NCBI RefSeq assembly: GCF_000429545.1
Contig: NZ_AUCB01000017.1
Span: 1 to 64,000 of the forward strand
DNA from: Arenibacter certesii DSM 19833
GTDB lineage: Bacteria > Bacteroidota > Bacteroidia > Flavobacteriales > Flavobacteriaceae
Direction of reading: 5' to 3'
Length of the DNA: 64,000 nucleotides
Within the stretch, counting starts at the first letter, position 1, and every line of letters starts with the position of its first letter. Both the position numbers and the translations under genes were made by a program. This document shows positions 1 to 10,333 of the stretch, one piece after another. A model generated the notes under the pieces. It was not told the DNA's origin. It was given only the letters and a program-made list of their open reading frames with translations, and ran no database searches.

Positions 1-1
1 T

Positions 2-133
2 GTCGGCCATGGCGCTGGAAAAAGCGGCATAGGGACTAGCGATCCGAAACTTCGATGGGAAAGGTATGCCAGAACCTCACTAAAACGACCAAAAAGCCCT
101 CTTAAACCGGACGAAAATCCACTTCGAAAATAA
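2..133 (+). other. Open frame at left edge, possible C-terminal fragment of an unknown protein
   Basis: Bases 1-90 are about 53% G+C, clearly richer than the rest of the window. The second forward frame stays open from the edge to a TAA at 131-133, giving 43 residues that are basic and proline-rich near the end (contains KRPKSPLKPDENP). The opposite strand is also open from about 145 to the edge, so the open frame may simply reflect base composition. I do not recognise the product. It could be the tail of a gene that starts outside the window, or non-coding DNA. Confidence 0.2.
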
Positions 134-142
134 ACCATAAAA

Positions 143-176
143 AAAATCCCGGAAACATCGATGTTCCAGGATTCGT
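143..176 (-). terminator. Rho-independent terminator for leftward transcription
   Basis: Read on the minus strand, AATCCTGG is followed by a central AACATCGATGTT palindrome, then CCGGGATT and a run of T (the A-run at about 138-145 on the plus strand). It lies downstream of the leftward DUF3078 gene, so it probably ends that transcript. Confidence 0.55.
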
Positions 177-262
177 TCTGTCCAGTTTTTAGTGAAAATC
201 GGCCTACTCCCGAATATCCCCGAATAGAGGGCTTTTGATAATATATATACGTTTTTTATATA

Positions 263-1195
263 TTAGAAAGAATAGTTTAGACCAAACAACCAATACGTCT
301 GCAAGTCATTATCTACATTGCTAAAATTAGGCTCAGGATCGGTAACTGCCATATTATTAATAGCATAGTTCAATGCTTCTTGCTTGTTATCCCTTAAGCC
401 AAACTCAAATCCTAACCCAATTCCTTTCCACAAGGTATAACCAAAAGAATTGGTCCAAGTCCAGTTAGAATAGTCCGAAGATTTATAGCTTTGAAACATA
501 GATAAATTAGTTTTAAAATTTACTTTCCCTAATTGTCTTGTATAATCGGCAACAATCTTAGCTCCTAAAGAAGATTCAAAAACGGTATCCCCACTACTAA
601 AAACAAAGTTATAGTTTAATGGGTGTATTACCACTACTAAATCGGTAATAGGAGTCCACGTAGCACCCACCCCAAGATCCAAATAACCAGGATCGTTAAA
701 ATTATCGATAATGGTTGTTTTGTATTCCCCTAAGGTCGAGATCGCAAAATTTTCGCTAAGCTTCTGACCGTAAAGAGATGTTATTGTAAATACATCTGTA
801 GAGGAACGAAAGCTATCGTCATCGGTATCAATATCCTTATCGTCTATCTTTACCCATCCAAGATTTACGTTAAGGGAGTTTCTCCAAAAAAACTTTTCCT
901 GATTAAGGTTTGCAAAGGCATTTACTGTTACACCAATATTCCCTGCACTAGAGTTAGGAGCTCCTTTGGCGTACCAGTTGTTAAATCCAGAAAGACTGGC
1001 ACCTATTGTTCCAAAAGCGCCTTTTTTCCATCCCGGAAGCGCCTTTATCTTTGCTTGGATGTCATTTACCCTTCCTTGAATTGCTGCAATGGAATCAGTC
1101 TTAATACTTTTCTCTGCCTTTAGTTCTTCCAAAGTTTGAGCTGAACCTACTTGAATCGTCATAAGGACGATAAATGCGAGTACAATTTTCTTCAT
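263..1195 (-). CDS. DUF3078 family outer-membrane protein
   Basis: A 310-residue exported protein. Residues 1-19 form a signal peptide (KKIVLAFIVLMTIQVGSAQ). Residues 20-52 are a charged heptad-like helix of the kind that precedes many flavobacterial barrels. The rest is alternating aromatic/polar beta strands with a C-terminal phenylalanine (LNYSF), as expected for a barrel inserted by BAM. The family is common in Bacteroidota and has no assigned substrate. The start is the ATG immediately before the signal peptide. The next gene upstream on the same strand begins about 500 bases away with a 70-base spacer, so co-transcription is possible. The assignment to the family rests on overall pattern recognition; function is unknown. 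Confidence 0.8.
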   Translation of the reverse strand: MKKIVLAFIVLMTIQVGSAQTLEELKAEKSIKTDSIAAIQGRVNDIQAKIKALPGWKKGAFGTIGASLSGFNNWYAKGAPNSSAGNIGVTVNAFANLNQEKFFWRNSLNVNLGWVKIDDKDIDTDDDSFRSSTDVFTITSLYGQKLSENFAISTLGEYKTTIIDNFNDPGYLDLGVGATWTPITDLVVVIHPLNYNFVFSSGDTVFESSLGAKIVADYTRQLGKVNFKTNLSMFQSYKSSDYSNWTWTNSFGYTLWKGIGLGFEFGLRDNKQEALNYAINNMAVTDPEPNFSNVDNDLQTYWLFGLNYSF

Positions 1196-1265
1196 AATAA
1201 TCTATGTTTATTGAATTTACGGCAAAATTAAGAAACTTTGTATTTTGGCTGTGTCTTATTGAGAG

Positions 1266-1769
1266 TTATTTTGCCTTAAAAAGTGGCACGGAGGAACAAG
1301 CTTCACCATACATAACACTTCTTGCCACCTTTTGTAATTTTGCCGTGACCCATAAATAAGCATTGGGAGGTACAGGTTTGTTAGAGCACCCTTTAACGAT
1401 AACGGGTTTACCCTCGTATTCCGAAACATCTAAATTTTCCAAAATGTCTTGATATAAGGAAGATTCCAGCATTTCTAGTTCACCAACAACCATTCTCTTG
1501 CAGTAGGGCTGTAATTTAGTACCTATAAGCATATAGGCCCAACCCGGAATAATAGCGTCTGAAGAACAGGTTAAAGCAATATACTTATCTTGGTATTGGC
1601 TCCAATCGTGATCTTCCAAATACTGCCTAAATTCCTTTTCCCGAAGTATAATATCTTCGTACAGCCAATCCTTTATATCTAAAAGCACCCTTTCTCCCTT
1701 AGGATAGTAATCCTCTAAATTAAAGGTGACTAATTTACTTTGCGCAACGCGATTTACGATCTCTGACAT
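1266..1769 (-). CDS. DUF2480 family protein
   Basis: A soluble protein of 167 residues without signal peptide or membrane segment. Features recognised from the Bacteroidota-restricted DUF2480 family are the N-terminal helix with NRVAQS, the LTCSSDAIIPGWAYML stretch at about residues 67-82, and the GCSNKPVP motif near residues 127-134. Cys68, Cys90, Cys128 and Cys158 are present, but I cannot say whether they bind metal. It often sits near iron-sulfur or redox genes, and here the next gene upstream on the same strand is a 2Fe-2S reductase. That is suggestive, not proof of a shared role. No function is known to me. Confidence 0.8.
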   Translation of the reverse strand: MSEIVNRVAQSKLVTFNLEDYYPKGERVLLDIKDWLYEDIILREKEFRQYLEDHDWSQYQDKYIALTCSSDAIIPGWAYMLIGTKLQPYCKRMVVGELEMLESSLYQDILENLDVSEYEGKPVIVKGCSNKPVPPNAYLWVTAKLQKVARSVMYGEACSSVPLFKAK

Positions 1770-1783
1770 ATTTAAAATTTAAG

Positions 1784-1791
1784 CAAAAATA
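1784..1791 (-). promoter_or_regulatory. Bacteroidota -7 element (TATTTTTG) upstream of the DUF2480 gene
   Basis: Minus-strand TATTTTTG matches TAnnTTTG and ends about 15 bases before the ATG at 1769. No TTG is present at the ideal distance upstream, so the match is partial. Confidence 0.4.
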
Positions 1792-1881
1792 AAGACATTA
1801 TAGCATTAAGACTCTAAAATAATTCTTTGCCTGAGTCCAGACCATTTACGGCCTTTAACAATACGCCATCGTTAGACCATG

Positions 1882-2931
1882 TTATACATCATCATAATCC
1901 ACCGTTAATGTTTCGGTAGTTGGATGCGCTTGACAGGTTAAAATAAGCCCTTCGGCAATTTCGCCATCGGTTAAAATTTGATTTTTTACCATCTCGGCCT
2001 TTCCTTCTTTGATTCGAGCGATACAGCTACTACAAACTCCACCTTGACAGGAATAAGGCGCATCAATGTTCTCTTTTAGAACCGCATCGAGCACTACGGA
2101 ACCTTTATCCATAGAAAGCGAAAACTCCTCATCGTCCAAAATAACCTTCACCACGGTTTTACCATCTAGCTTCTCAGGAAGTTCGTCCTTAATTTCAGTT
2201 TCGGTAAAAAGTTCAAAATGAATCTTATCCTCAGTAATTTCGTTTTCTTTTAAATGATCTTTCACCAAGTGGATCATAGGTTCTGGACCACATAAATAAA
2301 AATCATTGAACGTTACGTTCTTATGTTTATTCTTTAGCACATAGTTTATAGTGGAAGTGTCTATTCTCCCAAATATAGATTCGTCCTCCTGAGTCTGACT
2401 CAATATAAAATACACGAAAAACCTATTTGGGTAATCCAATTGTAATTTCACCAAATCCGTATAGAACATGGTTTCTTTATAGGACCTATTCCCAAAAGTC
2501 AGAACAAAAGTGTTTTTAGGATTACTTTCCAACACCGTTTTGGCAATACTCATAATAGGAGTAATTCCACTCCCTGCAGCAAATGCGGCAATATTTTTAG
2601 GACTGCTGCTAGGCTTAAATATAAACCTACCTTCTGGAGGCATAACCTCTAAAACATCCCCAACCTTTAATTTACTATGGGCATAAGCGGAAAATCCACC
2701 TTTATCCACCTTTTTTACCCCAATGGTAATGGAGTCGGATTTAGGGGAAGAACTAATGGAATACGCTCTACGTAATTCCTTGCCTTTAATCTCTTTTTTA
2801 ATGGTTATATATTGACCAGCGGTAAAACCAAATGTCTGGATCAGTTCCTTTGGAATGGTAAAAGTTATTGCAACCGAGTTTGGTGTAAGTTGCTTTATTT
2901 TTTGAACCGTAAGCGAATGAAAATGGGCCAT
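1882..2931 (-). CDS. PaaE-like flavin reductase with C-terminal 2Fe-2S ferredoxin domain
   Basis: A three-domain electron-transfer protein of 349 residues, from NAD(P)H through FAD to a 2Fe-2S cluster. The FAD-binding barrel has RAYS at residues 55-58, the nucleotide-binding domain has GSGITP at 120-125, and the plant-type ferredoxin domain carries Cys295, Cys300, Cys303 and Cys333 in the CX4CX2C...C pattern. This order matches PaaE and related oxygenase or desaturase reductases. No paa genes are nearby, so the partner is unknown. I chose the ATG at 2931 (MAHFHS) rather than the longer frame from 3018, because the extra 29 residues look unlike the family and a good -7 element (TAATTTTG) lies between the two starts. 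Confidence 0.85.
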   Translation of the reverse strand: MAHFHSLTVQKIKQLTPNSVAITFTIPKELIQTFGFTAGQYITIKKEIKGKELRRAYSISSSPKSDSITIGVKKVDKGGFSAYAHSKLKVGDVLEVMPPEGRFIFKPSSSPKNIAAFAAGSGITPIMSIAKTVLESNPKNTFVLTFGNRSYKETMFYTDLVKLQLDYPNRFFVYFILSQTQEDESIFGRIDTSTINYVLKNKHKNVTFNDFYLCGPEPMIHLVKDHLKENEITEDKIHFELFTETEIKDELPEKLDGKTVVKVILDDEEFSLSMDKGSVVLDAVLKENIDAPYSCQGGVCSSCIARIKEGKAEMVKNQILTDGEIAEGLILTCQAHPTTETLTVDYDDV

Positions 2932-2946
2932 ATTAAATCTTTGGCG

Positions 2947-2954
2947 CAAAATTA
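2947..2954 (-). promoter_or_regulatory. Bacteroidota -7 element (TAATTTTG) for the PaaE-like reductase
   Basis: Minus-strand TAATTTTG fits TAnnTTTG and ends 15 bases before the ATG at 2931. It would lie inside the gene if the longer start at 3018 were real, so it supports the shorter start. Confidence 0.5.
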
Positions 2955-3109
2955 AGCAAAGCAAGCAGGATTTAAAACGGGATTTCAAAAAAAATGCATA
3001 CATAGGATGCTTAGGCATTCTAATATTTCTTACATTTATTATTTAAACTGTAAAGCCGTGCTTTGTTTTAGCTCCAGAAAGGCGCACATATTATGCATTT
3101 GTAATCAAA

Positions 3110-3502
3110 ATGAGAAATTCCAAATTATATAAAGGAAGTTTAAATATCATTATCCTAAAACTCTTAGAAGAGCAAGGAAAAATGTACGGGTACGAAATTA
3201 CCCAAAAAGTAAAGGAGATCACCAAGGGCGAATTAAAAATCACCGAAGGATCATTGTATCCTGCCCTACATAAATTAGAAGCAGAAGGTTTATTAGAAGT
3301 AGAAGTTGCCAAAGTAGACAATAGAATAAGAAAGTATTATAAACTTACCGAAGCCGGAGAAAAGGAGACCGTGAACCGCTTAGCAGAATTGCAAGATTTT
3401 ATCCGAAATATGCAGCAATTAGTAAATCCAAAGTTGAGTTTAGAATCATCCCTACAAAGTTTGATACTAAATAGAGTCCCGATTCCGAAAAACCAACAAT
3501 AA
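3110..3502 (+). CDS. PadR-family transcriptional regulator
   Basis: A 130-residue winged-helix regulator. Typical PadR features are KGSLNIIILKLL at residues 8-19, MYGYEI at 25-30, the recognition-helix and wing segment ITEGSLYPALHKLE at about 44-57, and the wing end IRKYYKLTEAG. After residue 80 it has the short helical dimerisation tail of PadR-s1-like proteins. It heads a cassette in the same direction: two membrane proteins with a PadR-associated helical domain, an ABC permease and an ABC ATPase. The TAA stop is followed directly by the ATG of the next gene. By analogy with other PadR cassettes it probably represses this operon and responds to a hydrophobic or membrane-active ligand. The ligand is unknown. 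Confidence 0.93.
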   Translation: MRNSKLYKGSLNIIILKLLEEQGKMYGYEITQKVKEITKGELKITEGSLYPALHKLEAEGLLEVEVAKVDNRIRKYYKLTEAGEKETVNRLAELQDFIRNMQQLVNPKLSLESSLQSLILNRVPIPKNQQ

Positions 3503-4141
3503 ATGAAATTAGACCAACACCAACTAAGATTTATAGATACCTACCTTAAAAATTCAGACATTGAATATTTAGATCTCCGTGTGTAAATGCTAGACCATGT
3601 TGCTACTGGGGTTTTGGAAACAATGGAAGTGGAGAACATTTCTTTTTACGAGGCCTTTAAATCTTTTATGATAGTCAACAAGAAAGAGCTTTTAAAATGG
3701 AATAAAAATTTTAGGAAGGTTACCGACTTAAAGATGCTGCGAAAACTTGGTATTCAATTATGTAAGCCTTGGAGCATAGTAGTCTTTTTCACTTTTCTTT
3801 TACTCCTAAAAATAGGTACGGAATCATTTGATCTAATTGTAACTTTCAGATATATACCATTGGGGATTTTATTCGTGATTCTTATTTATTATTTCTATAA
3901 CTATAAGATTGTATTTAGGAAAAACCGTTTTTCAGGGTTAGAGCGTATAGGAACACCTTTAATTATTTTTCAGCAAGGGATATTGTTTTTATTTTCCCCC
4001 TATTATTCAAAAGTGTTTTTTCAAGAAAACACCTTAATTTACTACGCTTTTATCTCGCTAATCGTAGTAATGGGTTTGGTCTTTATAAGATTCATCCATG
4101 AATTGAAGAAAGCGTATTTAGCTCATTACAAAATAGCATAA
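3503..4141 (+). pseudogene. PadR-associated helical (HAAS-like) four-TM protein with an in-frame TAA at codon 28
   Basis: The frame begins at the ATG touching the padR stop and reads MKLDQHQLRFIDTYL... to codon 27, then TAA at 3584-3586. It resumes in the same frame with ATG at 3587 and runs to 4141 (184 residues). The N-terminal part resembles the helical domain found beside PadR regulators (HAAS/DUF1700-like), where relatives have Glu before the LDH motif, so the TAA most simply derives from GAA by one change. The C-terminal part has four hydrophobic segments: about 3766-3830, 3856-3900, 3957-4010 and 4036-4090. No indel is present. The stop and the next ATG are adjacent (TAAATG), so reinitiation could still make the membrane part. 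It could be a recent pseudogene, a recoded gene, a phase-variant state or a sequencing error. Confidence 0.7.
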
Positions 4142-4142
4142 A

Positions 4143-4832
4143 ATGAAAGTTAATCCAACGCAAATACAGGAGCTATACACCTTTACCCGCCAACACTTTG
4201 TGGAGCTTTACGACTTGCAAACCGAGTTAGTAGATCATTTAAGCAATGGGATTGAAGCCTAATGGAAAGAAAATCCGCAACTTAGTTTTAAGGAAGCGCT
4301 AAACAGAGAGTTTAAAAAATTTGGCGTTTTCGGATTTCAAGACGTTATTTTAGAGCAGGTAAAAGCAATGGAAAAACGATATCGGGCTTATATCTGGCGT
4401 TTTTTTAAAGACTATTTTACCTTTCCTAAAGTTGCATTAACCGTTTTTTTAATAGCTCTTTGCTATACGCTATTACGGCTATTATCTCCTGAAATAGGAA
4501 TTGGGGTTGTTTACGGTGTTTACTTTATGTCTTTGCTATTTATGTTTTATAAAACTTTTAAATTTAGAAAGCAACAACGTTCTAAAGAAAAAAGATGGAT
4601 GCTAGAAGATTTAATTTTTCAACAATTGGAATATTCCAACATTGCTTTTATTCCCATATACATCATTTCTTGGCCTATCAGATCCACAAGCTTACAATCT
4701 GAGTGGTTATCACTCCTTATCTCTGTTGGACTCCCCTGCCTAGGCTTATTTCTTCATGTAGTTACTAACATCATTCCACAAAAGGCAGAAGAACTATTAG
4801 AAGAAACGTATCCCGAGTACAGAATTGTATAA
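4143..4832 (+). pseudogene. Second PadR-associated helical four-TM protein with an in-frame TAA at codon 40
   Basis: This is a paralogue of the preceding gene, starting one base after its stop. The N-terminal domain aligns with it (YDLQTELVDHL against YLDLRV*MLDHV; LSFKEAL against ISFYEAF). The frame is closed by a single TAA at 4260-4262 (GIEA*WKENP) and is otherwise intact to 4832. The longest ATG-started remainder is 4368-4832 (154 residues), beginning MEKRYRAYIW, with four hydrophobic segments. Relatives appear to have Gln or another residue at the stop, so C-to-T or G-to-T is plausible. Unlike the first gene, the ATG overlapping the stop (TAATG at 4260-4264) is out of frame and closes after seven codons, so simple reinitiation would not restore it. 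The first half of the protein is probably lost. Confidence 0.7.
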
Positions 4833-4893
4833 ATTTGCTGTAACAAATCTGATGCATTTTATACTAACCGATGAGCAATAACCAAACACCTAT

Positions 4894-6366
4894 ATGCTAA
4901 AACACTTTCTTTCCCTTGAGTGGAAATCCTTTTTTAGATCCGCATCCTTTAAATCCAATTTGGGCATTAAAATCCTAATGTTCTTTGGGGCACTCTATTT
5001 TATGGCCGTATTCTTAGCAATGGGCGTTGGTGCCTTTTATATTATTAAAAAAGGGGGATGGGGCGATCCGCTAGAGGTATTCAACCAGTTTTTGATTTAC
5101 TATTTGGTGGGGGATCTCTATTTGAGGTATATGCTTCAAAAAATGCCTATTACCAATATAAAGCCTTTATTATACCTACCGGTAGAAAAAAATCAGGTAG
5201 TGGCATATTCCTTAGGAAAAACGGTAATTTCTTTCTTTAACTGGTCCCACGCATTTTTCTTTTTACCGTTCGCAGTTGTACTGCTGATTGAAGGATACAA
5301 CCCCACAGGAGTTATAGCTTGGCAATTGGGGATTATGGCATTGATCTTCTGCAATAATTTCATCAATGTATTGGTGAATAATAAAGACCAAATATTCTAT
5401 GCCGTATTGGCCCTCATCATCGTTTTGGGTGCTTGTCAATATTTTAACCTTTTCAACATCACCCAATACACAGCGCCGCTATTTAATGCCTTATACCAAA
5501 ATCCACTAACTGCCTTATTGCCGTGGGCCATGTTGCTAGCCCTTGCTGTATCCGCCTTCACCTATTTTAGAAGACATATGTATTTAGATGCAGGGTTAGC
5601 AAGCAAAAAATCGGTCGCTAAGACGGAGGATTATACATGGTTAAACCGTTTTGGAAATTTAGGCACCTTTTTAAAGAACGATATTAAATTGATCAAAAGA
5701 AATAAGCGTTCCAAGACCTCAGTAATTATGAGTTTCTTTTTCATTTTTTACGGGCTGTTGTTCTTTAGTGGAAGCGTATCTGCTTATGACGGACCGGTTT
5801 GGAAGATATTTGCAGGGATTTTTATTTCAGGCGGCTTCCTATTTAGTTTTGGTCAATTTGTTCCTAGTTGGGATAGTGCCTACTACCCTTTAATGATGAG
5901 TCAGAACATAAAATACAAGGAATATTTAAATTCTAAGTGGTTCCTAATGGTAATTGCCACCATAATAAGCACAATTTTAGCTTCCTTTTATCTCTATTTT
6001 GGACTGGATGCTTACTTAGCGGTAATCGTTGGTGCAATTTATAATATAGGAGTCAATTCTTACCTAGTTCTTTGGGGCGGAGCCTATATAAAAACACCTA
6101 TAGACCTTAGCTCAAACAAAAAGGCATTTGGAGATAAACAGGCATTTAACTCCAAAACCCTTCTACTTACCCTTCCCAAGTTAATTTTGCCCTTAGGTTT
6201 TTATGCCTTAGGACACTACCTAATTAATCCTACTGCGGGTTATATTTTTGTAGCCATGGCTGGCGTACTTGGGTTTGCCTTTAAAAATAAGGTGTTTAAA
6301 AGGATAGAGCATATTTATAAAAAAGAAAAGTATAAAACGCTGGCTGCCTATAAGCAAAAAGCTTAA
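4894..6366 (+). CDS. DUF5687 family ABC transporter permease
   Basis: An integral membrane protein of 490 residues with about 12 hydrophobic segments and a long polar loop around residues 245-285 (KKSVAKTEDYTWL...KRNKRSKT). The family is known from Bacteroidota gene pairs in which an ATP-binding subunit follows directly, and here the ATPase starts 14 bases downstream. The start MLKHFLSLEWKSFFRSASF is a typical amphipathic entry helix. In this cassette it is presumably the membrane channel exporting or clearing the compound sensed by the PadR repressor. Substrate unknown. It is preceded by a 61-base spacer after the second interrupted gene, so it may still be expressed even though the two upstream genes are broken. 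Confidence 0.88.
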   Translation: MLKHFLSLEWKSFFRSASFKSNLGIKILMFFGALYFMAVFLAMGVGAFYIIKKGGWGDPLEVFNQFLIYYLVGDLYLRYMLQKMPITNIKPLLYLPVEKNQVVAYSLGKTVISFFNWSHAFFFLPFAVVLLIEGYNPTGVIAWQLGIMALIFCNNFINVLVNNKDQIFYAVLALIIVLGACQYFNLFNITQYTAPLFNALYQNPLTALLPWAMLLALAVSAFTYFRRHMYLDAGLASKKSVAKTEDYTWLNRFGNLGTFLKNDIKLIKRNKRSKTSVIMSFFFIFYGLLFFSGSVSAYDGPVWKIFAGIFISGGFLFSFGQFVPSWDSAYYPLMMSQNIKYKEYLNSKWFLMVIATIISTILASFYLYFGLDAYLAVIVGAIYNIGVNSYLVLWGGAYIKTPIDLSSNKKAFGDKQAFNSKTLLLTLPKLILPLGFYALGHYLINPTAGYIFVAMAGVLGFAFKNKVFKRIEHIYKKEKYKTLAAYKQKA

Positions 6367-6380
6367 TAACAACATATTTT

Positions 6381-7082
6381 ATGATTAAAATTGAAAATAT
6401 AACCAAGACCTATGGCAGCGCTACGGTATTGAATATAGCGAATTTGGAAATTCCTAAAGGACAGAGCTTTGGCCTCGTAGGAAACAACGGGGCAGGAAAA
6501 ACCACCCTATTCAGCCTAATGCTAGACCTTATTCAACCCACTACAGGCCACATTATTAATAACGGCGTTTTGGTAGATGAGTGCGAAGCATGGAAACCAT
6601 TTACCTCCGCATTTATAGATGAAACCTTTTTAATAGGGTATCTTACCCCCGAGGAGTATTTCTATTTTATTGGAGAATTAAGAGGACTGAACAAAGCCGA
6701 TGTAGATGCGCTCTTGCCCGGTTTTGAAGGTTTTTTCCATGGGGAGATTCTTGGACAGAAAAAATATTTGCGTGACCTTTCTAAAGGAAACCAGAAAAAA
6801 GTGGGCATTGTTGCCTCTTTTATTGGCAATCCCGAAGTGATCATTTTAGACGAGCCCTTTGCTAACCTAGACCCCACTACTCAAATTAGACTGAAAGGTA
6901 TAATTAAAGATCTTGCCAATAACAGAGAGGTTACCGTACTAATTTCTAGTCATGATTTAATCCATGTTACAGAGGTTTGTGAGCGTATAGTAGTGTTGCA
7001 GAAGGGCGAAACGGTTAAGGACATCCGTACCTCTACGGAAACCCTAAAAGAACTGGAGGCCTTTTTCGCAGGACCTGCGTAG
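6381..7082 (+). CDS. ABC transporter ATP-binding protein
   Basis: A 233-residue nucleotide-binding subunit. Walker A is GNNGAGKTT at residues 34-42, the signature loop is LSKGNQ at 133-138 (the usual LSGGQ is changed to SKGN, as in many antibiotic-type ABC ATPases), and Walker B is IILDEP at 154-159, followed by the D-loop NLDP and the switch histidine in SSHDL. It pairs with the DUF5687 permease 14 bases upstream and closes the PadR cassette. The short length, with no regulatory extension, matches CcmA/NatA-like exporters. The intergenic region after it (7083-7345) shows no clear terminator. Confidence 0.93.
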   Translation: MIKIENITKTYGSATVLNIANLEIPKGQSFGLVGNNGAGKTTLFSLMLDLIQPTTGHIINNGVLVDECEAWKPFTSAFIDETFLIGYLTPEEYFYFIGELRGLNKADVDALLPGFEGFFHGEILGQKKYLRDLSKGNQKKVGIVASFIGNPEVIILDEPFANLDPTTQIRLKGIIKDLANNREVTVLISSHDLIHVTEVCERIVVLQKGETVKDIRTSTETLKELEAFFAGPA

Positions 7083-7345
7083 TTAAACTTTCACAATTAT
7101 ATAAATAAAATGGTGTCCAGGGAAAATTCCTCCTCAATTCGCATGCTAGGGAACCTCGGAATAATACAACAAGAGCATATTTACTTCTCTTGATATTATT
7201 AATTATTACCACTGAAAAATTAACTTCTTAATGGAAGTTACCAAAGATTGTGTCTACTTCATAAAAATAATTCTACTTTTACCGACCAACTGCATAATAA
7301 ACACGTTATTTTTAAGTTCTAGGATACGTACGAATACATTGAATT

Positions 7346-9901
7346 TTGAAGCTTCGCAACAATCTAATTTTATTATCTGTTATTGGTGGATTGGCATTTA
7401 ATGCCTGCTCTACCAAGAAAGATGCTATGCTCAATAGAAGTTGGCATGCCCTAAACACCAAATACAATAGTTTGTACAATGGCAATATTGCCTTTGAAGA
7501 AGGCCGCGAAGGGCTAAATACTGAATACCAGGACAATTATTGGGAGATATTGCCAGTAGAACGATTGGAGGTTACCGAAGACCTGAAATTGGATTCGGAA
7601 GATAATAATCCCAAGTTTCTTCTCGCTGAGGAAAAAGCGGCAAAAGCCATACAAAAACACAGTATGGATATTAAAAATAGGGAACGCAATCCGCAAACCG
7701 ATGAGGCTTTCCTGCTCTTGGGAAAAGCTAGGTATTTTGACCAAAGGTATATGCCCGCCCTAGAATCCTTTAATTATATCCTCAATAAATACACACAGAG
7801 CGACAAACTTAATGAGGCTACCATTTGGCGAGAGAAAGTTAATATACGCTTACAGAATGAAGAGCTTGCAATTAAAAATTTAAAACGACTGCTAAAACAG
7901 GAACAGTTAAAAGATCAAGAATATGCAGATACCCACGCTATGATGGCGCAAGCATATATTAATTTAAATGTCCCAGACACCGCTATACAGCAACTAAAGA
8001 TAGCAACAGCATACACCAAGAAGAACCCCGAAAAAGGTCGATATTTATATATTATTGGTCAATTATTCAATCAAATAGGACATAAAGACAGTGCCAACTA
8101 TGCCTTTGACAAAGTCATAGCCCTTAATAGGAAATCTCCTAGGGTATATATGATTAACGCCCATATCCAAAAAATACAGAATACCGAACTTACCGATGAG
8201 AATACGGATGCACTATACCAGTATCTGGTAAGCTTAGAAGAAGATAGAGAAAACAGACCTTTTTTAAATAAAATCTACAGGGAATTGGCAGAATTCCATT
8301 ATGCAGAAGAATCCGATAGCCTCGCATTGGCATATTACAATAAATCGCTAAGGGCAACAAACAATATGCCTCAACTAAATGCGCTGAACTATGAGGATTT
8401 GGCCATCTATAATTTTGACCAGAACAACTATCGTACTTCTGGAGCTTATTATGACAGCGTACTGCAGAATTTACATGAAAATTCAAAAAAATACAGAGCG
8501 GTTAAAAAGAAACTGGACAATCTAGAAGATGTCATAAAATATGAGGAAGTTGTACAATATATGGATAGTGTTATTGGATTATACGAGCTTCCGATAACGG
8601 AGAGACAGGCCTATTTTGAGACGCATATAACCAAACTAAAGACTGCGGCAGCTAAAAAACAAAATAACGAATCGCGAGCTACCAATGAAGGCTTTGCAAC
8701 CTTTATGAAAACTAAAGGCAATAATGAAAATAAGGGTAAGTTCTATTTCTATAATATAACCACTCTTAGCTACGGCAAGAACGATTTTAAATCCAAATGG
8801 GGAACAAGAACCCTAGAAGATGATTGGCGTTGGTCCAACAAAAATAGGGTGCAAAATATAGCTCAAACAGGCGGGGAGGATCCAAACAAGAAAGATAATA
8901 CGGTAGCCCTCGAAGACGATCAAAAATATAACGTGATGTTTTACATGGATCAGATCCCTACAGATGAAAATTTCATAGATAGCCTACGAACCGAACGCAA
9001 CTTTGCTAATTACCAATTAGGACTTATCTATAAAGAGAAATTTAAGGAAAACCTTTTAGCTTCAGGAAAACTAGAGAACGTCCTTCGGTCCAGTCCAGAA
9101 GAGCGACTCATTATTCCTTCCAAATACAATCTATACAAGATTTATGAGGAAGAAAATAGTCCGCTAGCGGAAGAAATGAGGTATAACATTATTATAAACC
9201 ATCCAGAATCGCGCTATGCGGAAATACTACGAAACCCACAGGCTGTTTTAGCCGCAGATTCAAATAGTCCGGATGCTATTTATGGACAATTGTATAAAAA
9301 ATATCAAAATCAAGAATTCCTAAGCGTTATTACAGGAACCGAAGAACAGATCAGCAAATTCATAGGTGATCCTATAATTCCAAAGTTGGAGATGCTCAAA
9401 GCCAATTCTATTGGCAGATTGCAAGGCTTTGTAGCACTTAAGGAGGCTTTGAACTATGTATCCCTCAATTATCCTAATTCACCGGAAGGCAAAAAGGCTC
9501 AAAGCATGGTTGCCAATCAATTACCACAACTAGAAAATAGAGAATTCTCTACTGAAACAGAAAGCAGTGGCACTGGAAATTGGAAAGTTGTTTTTCCCCT
9601 CAAAACTCGTGATACCAAAAAAGCACTTCGATTAAAAGAACTATTGGAAAATTCTATTCAGGAATTAAAGTATAAAAATAAAGTCTCTTTGGATGTCTAT
9701 AATCTAGAGGAGATATTCGTGGTGGTACATGGTTTTAGAGCTAAGGATTTTGCCCTTGGATATACGGAACTGATTCAAAAAAATAAGGACTACATGATTC
9801 TGGATGAGAATTTCGTAATTTCATCTACCAATTACAAGATTATCCAAGTTCATAAAAATGTAGAAGAATATAAAAGCACATCAATAATTACAAAACTATA
9901 A
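7346..9901 (+). CDS. porW: Type IX secretion / gliding lipoprotein PorW (SprE), TTG start
   Basis: An 851-residue tetratricopeptide lipoprotein. PorW/SprE is needed for type IX secretion and gliding and links the PorKN ring to the trans-envelope machinery. The signal peptide ends in a lipobox with Cys21 (FNAC), giving outer- or inner-membrane anchoring. TPR-like repeats occupy about residues 90-420 and 600-760, and the C-terminus has a conserved SPOR-like region ending at residue 851. The start is TTG at 7346: the codon two upstream is TGA and the first ATG (codon 28) lies after the lipobox, so only TTG preserves the signal peptide. It is followed four bases later by bactofilin and then by the atp genes, an order seen widely in Flavobacteriia. 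Confidence 0.88.
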   Translation: MKLRNNLILLSVIGGLAFNACSTKKDAMLNRSWHALNTKYNSLYNGNIAFEEGREGLNTEYQDNYWEILPVERLEVTEDLKLDSEDNNPKFLLAEEKAAKAIQKHSMDIKNRERNPQTDEAFLLLGKARYFDQRYMPALESFNYILNKYTQSDKLNEATIWREKVNIRLQNEELAIKNLKRLLKQEQLKDQEYADTHAMMAQAYINLNVPDTAIQQLKIATAYTKKNPEKGRYLYIIGQLFNQIGHKDSANYAFDKVIALNRKSPRVYMINAHIQKIQNTELTDENTDALYQYLVSLEEDRENRPFLNKIYRELAEFHYAEESDSLALAYYNKSLRATNNMPQLNALNYEDLAIYNFDQNNYRTSGAYYDSVLQNLHENSKKYRAVKKKLDNLEDVIKYEEVVQYMDSVIGLYELPITERQAYFETHITKLKTAAAKKQNNESRATNEGFATFMKTKGNNENKGKFYFYNITTLSYGKNDFKSKWGTRTLEDDWRWSNKNRVQNIAQTGGEDPNKKDNTVALEDDQKYNVMFYMDQIPTDENFIDSLRTERNFANYQLGLIYKEKFKENLLASGKLENVLRSSPEERLIIPSKYNLYKIYEEENSPLAEEMRYNIIINHPESRYAEILRNPQAVLAADSNSPDAIYGQLYKKYQNQEFLSVITGTEEQISKFIGDPIIPKLEMLKANSIGRLQGFVALKEALNYVSLNYPNSPEGKKAQSMVANQLPQLENREFSTETESSGTGNWKVVFPLKTRDTKKALRLKELLENSIQELKYKNKVSLDVYNLEEIFVVVHGFRAKDFALGYTELIQKNKDYMILDENFVISSTNYKIIQVHKNVEEYKSTSIITKL

Positions 9902-9904
9902 AAT

Positions 9905-10333
9905 ATGTTTTCAGACAACAAAAAAGTTCGTACTACAAATGAACCAACCGGACAACCAAACAGAATAGGCAAGTCTACCAAAATTAAAGGAGATATAGTT
10001 TCCGATGCAGATTTTAGGATAGATGGCGAACTAGAAGGCAATGTAACTACCTCTGGGAAAGTGGTTATTGGCGCAGGAGGAAATATTAAGGGAAAAGTGG
10101 AGTGCGCACAAGCCGATATAGAAGGAAGTTTTAATGGTGAATTGATCGTTACCGATCTATTATCGCTAAAATCATCTGCGATTATAGACGGCACGGTAAG
10201 CGTTGCTAAGCTAGCTGTAGAACCAGGAGCTACTTTTAATGCCTCTTGCACCATGAGGGGAAAAGGCACTAAGGGAAGTGCTTCAAACACACAAAATACC
10301 GCAACCGTTAATGGATCCTCAAAAACCGCCTAA
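9905..10333 (+). CDS. Bactofilin (polymer-forming cytoskeletal protein)
   Basis: A 142-residue protein with the bactofilin core at about residues 20-115. It begins with IGKSTKIKGDI and continues with regularly spaced glycine/hydrophobic rungs (DGELEGNV, VVIGAGGNIKGKV, DGTVSVAKLAV) that form a right-handed beta-helix, flanked by short disordered ends. Bactofilins polymerise without nucleotide and scaffold envelope enzymes at specific cell sites. It starts three bases after porW. Its last 23 bases overlap the start of the atpZ-like gene, implying translational coupling. The partner in this organism is unknown. PBP1A and the EnvC-like activator are encoded elsewhere in the window and are only possible clients. 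Confidence 0.9.
   Translation: MFSDNKKVRTTNEPTGQPNRIGKSTKIKGDIVSDADFRIDGELEGNVTTSGKVVIGAGGNIKGKVECAQADIEGSFNGELIVTDLLSLKSSAIIDGTVSVAKLAVEPGATFNASCTMRGKGTKGSASNTQNTATVNGSSKTA

Follow-up and report, generated by a model that had tools for sequence, protein, structure and literature searches.

Two probable recent nonsense mutations in adjacent PadR-linked membrane protein genes of Arenibacter certesii: a gene pair probably being lost within the genus

In Arenibacter certesii DSM 19833, two adjacent genes that encode small membrane proteins and lie directly downstream of a padR gene are each interrupted by a single in-frame TAA, which raises the question of whether these stops are fresh nonsense mutations in genes on their way out, are bypassed in some way during translation, or are errors of the assembly. 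The window analysed here (the whole stretch of 64,000 nucleotides from the start of contig C16) contains the locus near its beginning, with all genes on the forward strand. Gene 1 (3503-4141), encoding a small multi-helix membrane protein of the PadR-linked pair, has one nonsense codon inside, at codon 28 (TAA, 3584-3586), and gene 2 (4143-4832), a second small membrane protein gene, likewise has one, at codon 40 (TAA, 4260-4262). Upstream is an uninterrupted gene for a PadR-family regulator of 130 aa (3110-3502; Pfam PF03551, E 1.4e-22 over 3110-3499). Downstream are an intact gene for a DUF5687 permease-like membrane protein (4894-6366; Pfam PF18940, E 6.1e-204), with a match in all 18 genomes of the genus, and an intact gene for an ABC transporter ATPase (6381-7082; Pfam PF00005, E 2.1e-20).

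An earlier note on this DNA, made from the sequence alone, had described one in-frame TAA per gene in frames that are otherwise open and free of indels, and reading of the frames together with congener lengths bears this out. Counted with their stops, gene 1 has 639 bases and gene 2 has 690, identical to the intact copies in A. amylolyticus (639 and 690), so there is no net indel in either gene. Both stops are flanked on each side by coding-type hexamer usage in a scan covering 104 of the contig's 106.7 kb. The note's placement of both stops in the same domain is loosely true: gene 1 codon 28 falls on a column that is invariant in 19 aligned homologues, whereas gene 2 codon 40 is located past the equivalent motif, outside the invariant columns of the 13 homologues aligned. 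Its "four-TM part" is seen less sharply, with a simple scan for hydropathy showing three to four strongly hydrophobic segments and no clear four.

Comparison with relatives found intact copies with sense codons at both TAA sites. In A. amylolyticus (G010, L036) and in a genome of another genus (G096, L037), padR, gene 1, and gene 2 occur in the same order and are all open, and sense codons occupy both stop sites in the relatives examined (G010 and G096, and for gene 2 also A. latericius). A. latericius DSM 15913 (G001, L035) is the closest of 17 congeners by permease identity (93%); its gene 2 is open, and padR and gene 2 have no gene 1 between them. Letters resembling the last bases of gene 1 remain before its gene 2 start (about 5165-5193 of L035), and since padR runs into these letters and then into gene 2, the sequence suggests that gene 1 was likely deleted there. 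The pentamer TTTAG is present near both presumed ends of this deletion, as read in the A. certesii genome.

Across the genus, the padR-gene 1-gene 2 block lies between an oxidoreductase gene and the DUF5687 permease/ATPase pair in three of 18 genomes, that of A. certesii included. In the other 15 the oxidoreductase gene adjoins the permease gene, and padR, gene 1, and gene 2 were not found between them (tblastn, E 1e-3); the block is therefore accessory. The three carriers differ in state: both genes are intact in A. amylolyticus, gene 1 is deleted in A. latericius, and each gene has one stop in A. certesii. By individual gene, gene 1 is matched in 2/18 genomes (A. certesii and A. amylolyticus), gene 2 at an identity of at least 73% in 3/18, and a close padR (at least 83%) also in 3/18, or in 18/18 if distant PadR proteins (33-36%) are included. 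Weak gene 2-like matches (25-27% identity) occur elsewhere in A. certesii, A. latericius, A. amylolyticus, and the congener G004, the one in A. certesii being L009 (G000:C22:34551-34802, 27% identity). In a further congener, G011, the permease match comes in two pieces near the start with one TAG (L115 about 1485-1600, G011:C1), perhaps a break in that gene.

Outside the genus, a family-wide sample of 299 genomes gave a gene 1 match in 20, with 24 match rows, of which three contain internal stops; the A. certesii row shows none, as the query began behind its stop. One of the three is from another genus (G169, L026 about 1418-2050), where the likeness to gene 1 shifts frame when the three frames are read by eye, and this relative appears to be broken by a frameshift. 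The remaining two rows show weak similarity over part of the query. A scan of named genomes with gene 1 alone returned no relative, and with the gene 2 alignment it returned two loci. For the homologue alignments we used 13 gene 2-type and 19 gene 1-type sequences, picked as full-length and including A. amylolyticus (for gene 2 also A. latericius). The alignments excluded duplicate entries of genes already present (L031-L034), L024, two cases with unclear starts (L014 and the L023 gene 2), and additional copies of greater distance in L015, L017, L022, L025, and L026. Both L014 genes and the L023 gene 2 read open.

The substitution pattern bears on the age of the stops. For gene 2, dN/dS is 0.164 between A. 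certesii and A. latericius, compared to 0.168 between A. latericius and A. amylolyticus. With changes polarised by A. amylolyticus, the A. certesii branch carries 22 silent and 23 replacing changes and the A. latericius branch 20 and 16 (Fisher p 0.66). Fitted as a simple mixture, the counts are best explained with 3-8% of the A. certesii branch free of constraint, the upper limit being about a third. Behind the stop (codons 76-229), pN/pS is 0.26 between A. certesii and A. latericius vs. 0.29 for the intact pair A. latericius-A. amylolyticus. Gene 2 as a whole keeps all 25 columns invariant among the 13 homologues. Because it gives no hint of relaxed constraint on the A. certesii branch, these counts indicate that its stop is recent and that ordinary purifying selection prevailed over most of the branch. 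A young stop in gene 2 also fits the absence of indels, and the note's argument that independent decay would also leave frameshifts thus has little force, as the decay looks too recent for indels. Gene 1 keeps 11 of 13 columns invariant among the 19 homologues, the changed ones being the stop and one other, and its dN/dS is 0.218 to A. amylolyticus and 0.190 for A. amylolyticus-G096, where silent sites are near saturation. As gene 1 is missing in A. latericius and the nearest intact copy is distant, its stop is poorly dated.

How much of a coincidence is a pair of TAA stops in adjacent genes? In the intact copies of A. amylolyticus and A. latericius, a random single substitution creates a stop about 5.7% of the time. 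TAA is the easiest stop to reach by one change, accounting for 48 of 103 codon-stop pairs in gene 1 and for 61 of 125 in gene 2. TAA in both genes would thus arise by chance with a frequency of about 0.23, and both stops would fall within the first 75 codons with a frequency of about 0.10 (36/103 x 35/125), both measures being after-the-fact. The stop pair is a mild coincidence and not a remarkable one.

We therefore favour, with a probability of roughly 0.86, two nonsense mutations of recent date, found in this genome alone (one genome of the species was compared), in a dispensable PadR-linked membrane pair that is being lost within Arenibacter. This was among the options of the earlier note, and it gains from the sense codons at both sites in relatives and from a module that is dispensable in the genus, as judged from the block missing at its place in most genus genomes, the missing gene 1 of A. 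latericius, and the apparent frameshift in G169. In such a course, loss of one partner would remove selection on the other, and the second stop would follow soon after; both this succession and the functional tie that it implies between the proteins are our inference. The three carriers would together give a snapshot of the loss of a small regulator-membrane protein module (one whole, one with a partner missing, and one with a fresh stop in each partner), and these states hint at mutual dependence of the two membrane proteins.

Besides the comparison with relatives, we looked for in-gene stops elsewhere and for tRNAs that could read them. The hexamer scan, which requires 20 or more codons ahead of a stop and 40 or more behind it and may overlook some, e.g., near gene ends, flagged seven stops on C16, the two in question among them, and three in 53 kb of A. 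latericius. On reading, those at 9899, 77935, and 83457 of C16 are ends of separate genes, those at 4879 and 79657 are short stretches before a gene start, and the three in A. latericius are gene ends, leaving no wider class of such stops; no case besides the two was found in the 104 kb of contig scanned (genome 5.0 Mb). In the tRNA search, 150 of 313 candidates received a score; the resulting set is incomplete, since no isoleucine tRNA is listed. Among 37 hits, 36 were typed, and none of these carries an anticodon that reads UAA, UAG, or UGA. The untyped one, L093 (G000:C13:123065-123135), is a weak match (31 bits) close to the end of its contig, was not accepted by ARAGORN, and is possibly a 3' fragment of a tRNA or tmRNA.

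An alternative that we consider unlikely is that shortened proteins are still made by restarting translation at ATG 3587 in gene 1 and ATG 4368 in gene 2, which would yield membrane proteins that lack a complete N-terminal domain and are uncoupled from PadR. An in-frame ATG does directly adjoin the gene 1 TAA, opening a 184-aa frame (3587-4141) as a possible re-initiation product, and in gene 2 a 154-aa frame that would comprise the membrane part without the N-terminal domain opens at codon 76 (4368-4832), and constraint looks normal over codons 76-229. A recent stop equally predicts normal constraint downstream, however, and gene 2 has no equally good counterpart to the gene 1 restart, since the ATG that overlaps its TAA is out of frame and the first one in frame comes 36 codons after the stop. 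All 19 and 13 aligned homologues keep the N-terminal domain, although they were chosen as full-length.

It seems a shade less likely again that the locus is a new split form instead of a loss, in which restarted proteins without the PadR-facing domain and a PadR longer by 18 codons make up a rewired module. The padR gene is indeed longer here, at 393 bases (130 aa) vs. 339 bases (112 aa) in A. latericius, A. amylolyticus, and G096, and the extra 18 codons (3446-3502) end directly before the gene 1 start. The restarted proteins that this form calls for are those just weighed.

Assembly or sequencing errors at both stops are also unlikely. The genes do sit close to the beginning of contig C16, about 3.5 kb in, but the same contig has no further in-gene stop flagged in 104 kb, two errors that both produce TAA within 0.7 kb would be odd, and completeness and contamination of the genome are put at 99.99% and 1.21%. 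We give next to no weight to UAA being read as an amino acid through a suppressor tRNA or recoding, or to the stops acting as a reversible switch, both of which the earlier note had raised: the frames do remain open behind both stops, and an imperfect inverted pair (17 nt, 82%) flanks 4260, but inverting that segment would garble both genes rather than switch one codon, no stop-reading tRNA is among the typed hits, genes elsewhere on the contig terminate normally at TAA, the gene 1 stop sits on its invariant column, and no known RNA family reaches its gathering score in positions 1-10000. The repeats around the stops are short and imperfect throughout (four weak direct and two weak inverted pairs), and stop-codon recoding draws no support from this case.

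Several further observations concern the surroundings of the pair. Silent divergence from A. amylolyticus is about 0.49 of sites in genes 1 and 2 vs. 0.67-0.72 in padR, permease, and ATPase, and this lower value over 3503-4832 may reflect a past exchange of the segment between lineages. The ATPase has 233 aa, seven codons shorter than the 240 aa in A. latericius and A. amylolyticus and with different last residues, and in G096 it has 231 aa. Between 2900 and 7300 there are 11 promoter-like sites vs. 15.2 in shuffles and seven terminator-like sites vs. 3.7, one of the latter (4701-4715) within gene 2.

In layout the module resembles the HAAS-PadR dyad, which is described as a PadR-like winged-helix regulator paired with a membrane protein whose N-terminal three-helix domain is proposed to relay a membrane signal to PadR (PMC11237479). 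Similarly, a lone padR here lies directly upstream of genes for an N-terminal helical domain joined to a multi-helix membrane part, with the PadR-like winged-helix gene adjoining the helical-domain gene in the same order in A. amylolyticus and G096. Models of the A. amylolyticus proteins, both of low confidence, predict three helices ahead of the hydrophobic part, at 5-17, 27-41, and 48-58 in the gene 1 protein (mean pLDDT 50) and at 5-18, 23-43, and 49-59 in the gene 2 protein (mean pLDDT 48). The term "HAAS-like" used in the earlier note applies by position and helix pattern only, and neither family matches a Pfam HAAS-type model: with HAAS, DUF1700, and DUF1048 at E up to 0.1, matches were found in 0/13 gene 2 and 0/19 gene 1 homologues. 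Nor was the GxP motif (PMC11237479), which goes with a kink of the three-helix fold in the dyad, seen by eye at the domain end in gene 2 relatives, which have FGVFGF-like letters instead. A further difference from the dyad is that one padR here goes with two membrane proteins of different subtype, both of them broken in A. certesii.

Other searches with the two membrane proteins gave no NCBIfam match over the cut-off and, for relatives of solved structure, nothing beyond chance-level matches. The weak Pfam STING_TM match in 4 of the 13 gene 2 homologues (best E 0.0036, below the cut-off in the case shown) was set aside as unrelated. A literature search found none on DUF5687 and, judged by title, nothing relevant joining Arenibacter and PadR. 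The gene 1 and gene 2 proteins would work together as membrane partners of PadR, and the PadR module would control either the neighbouring DUF5687/ATPase transporter or its own operon.

Recent nonsense pseudogenes in bacteria typically have a single stop in a frame that is otherwise open, are seen in one genome, and affect dispensable genes. The two A. certesii genes agree with this picture on every one of these points, and differ from it in that two neighbouring partners are hit, once each and with no indel. Against this background, an unexceptional loss of genes, caught while under way, seems to account for the case better than an altered genetic code or a switch.
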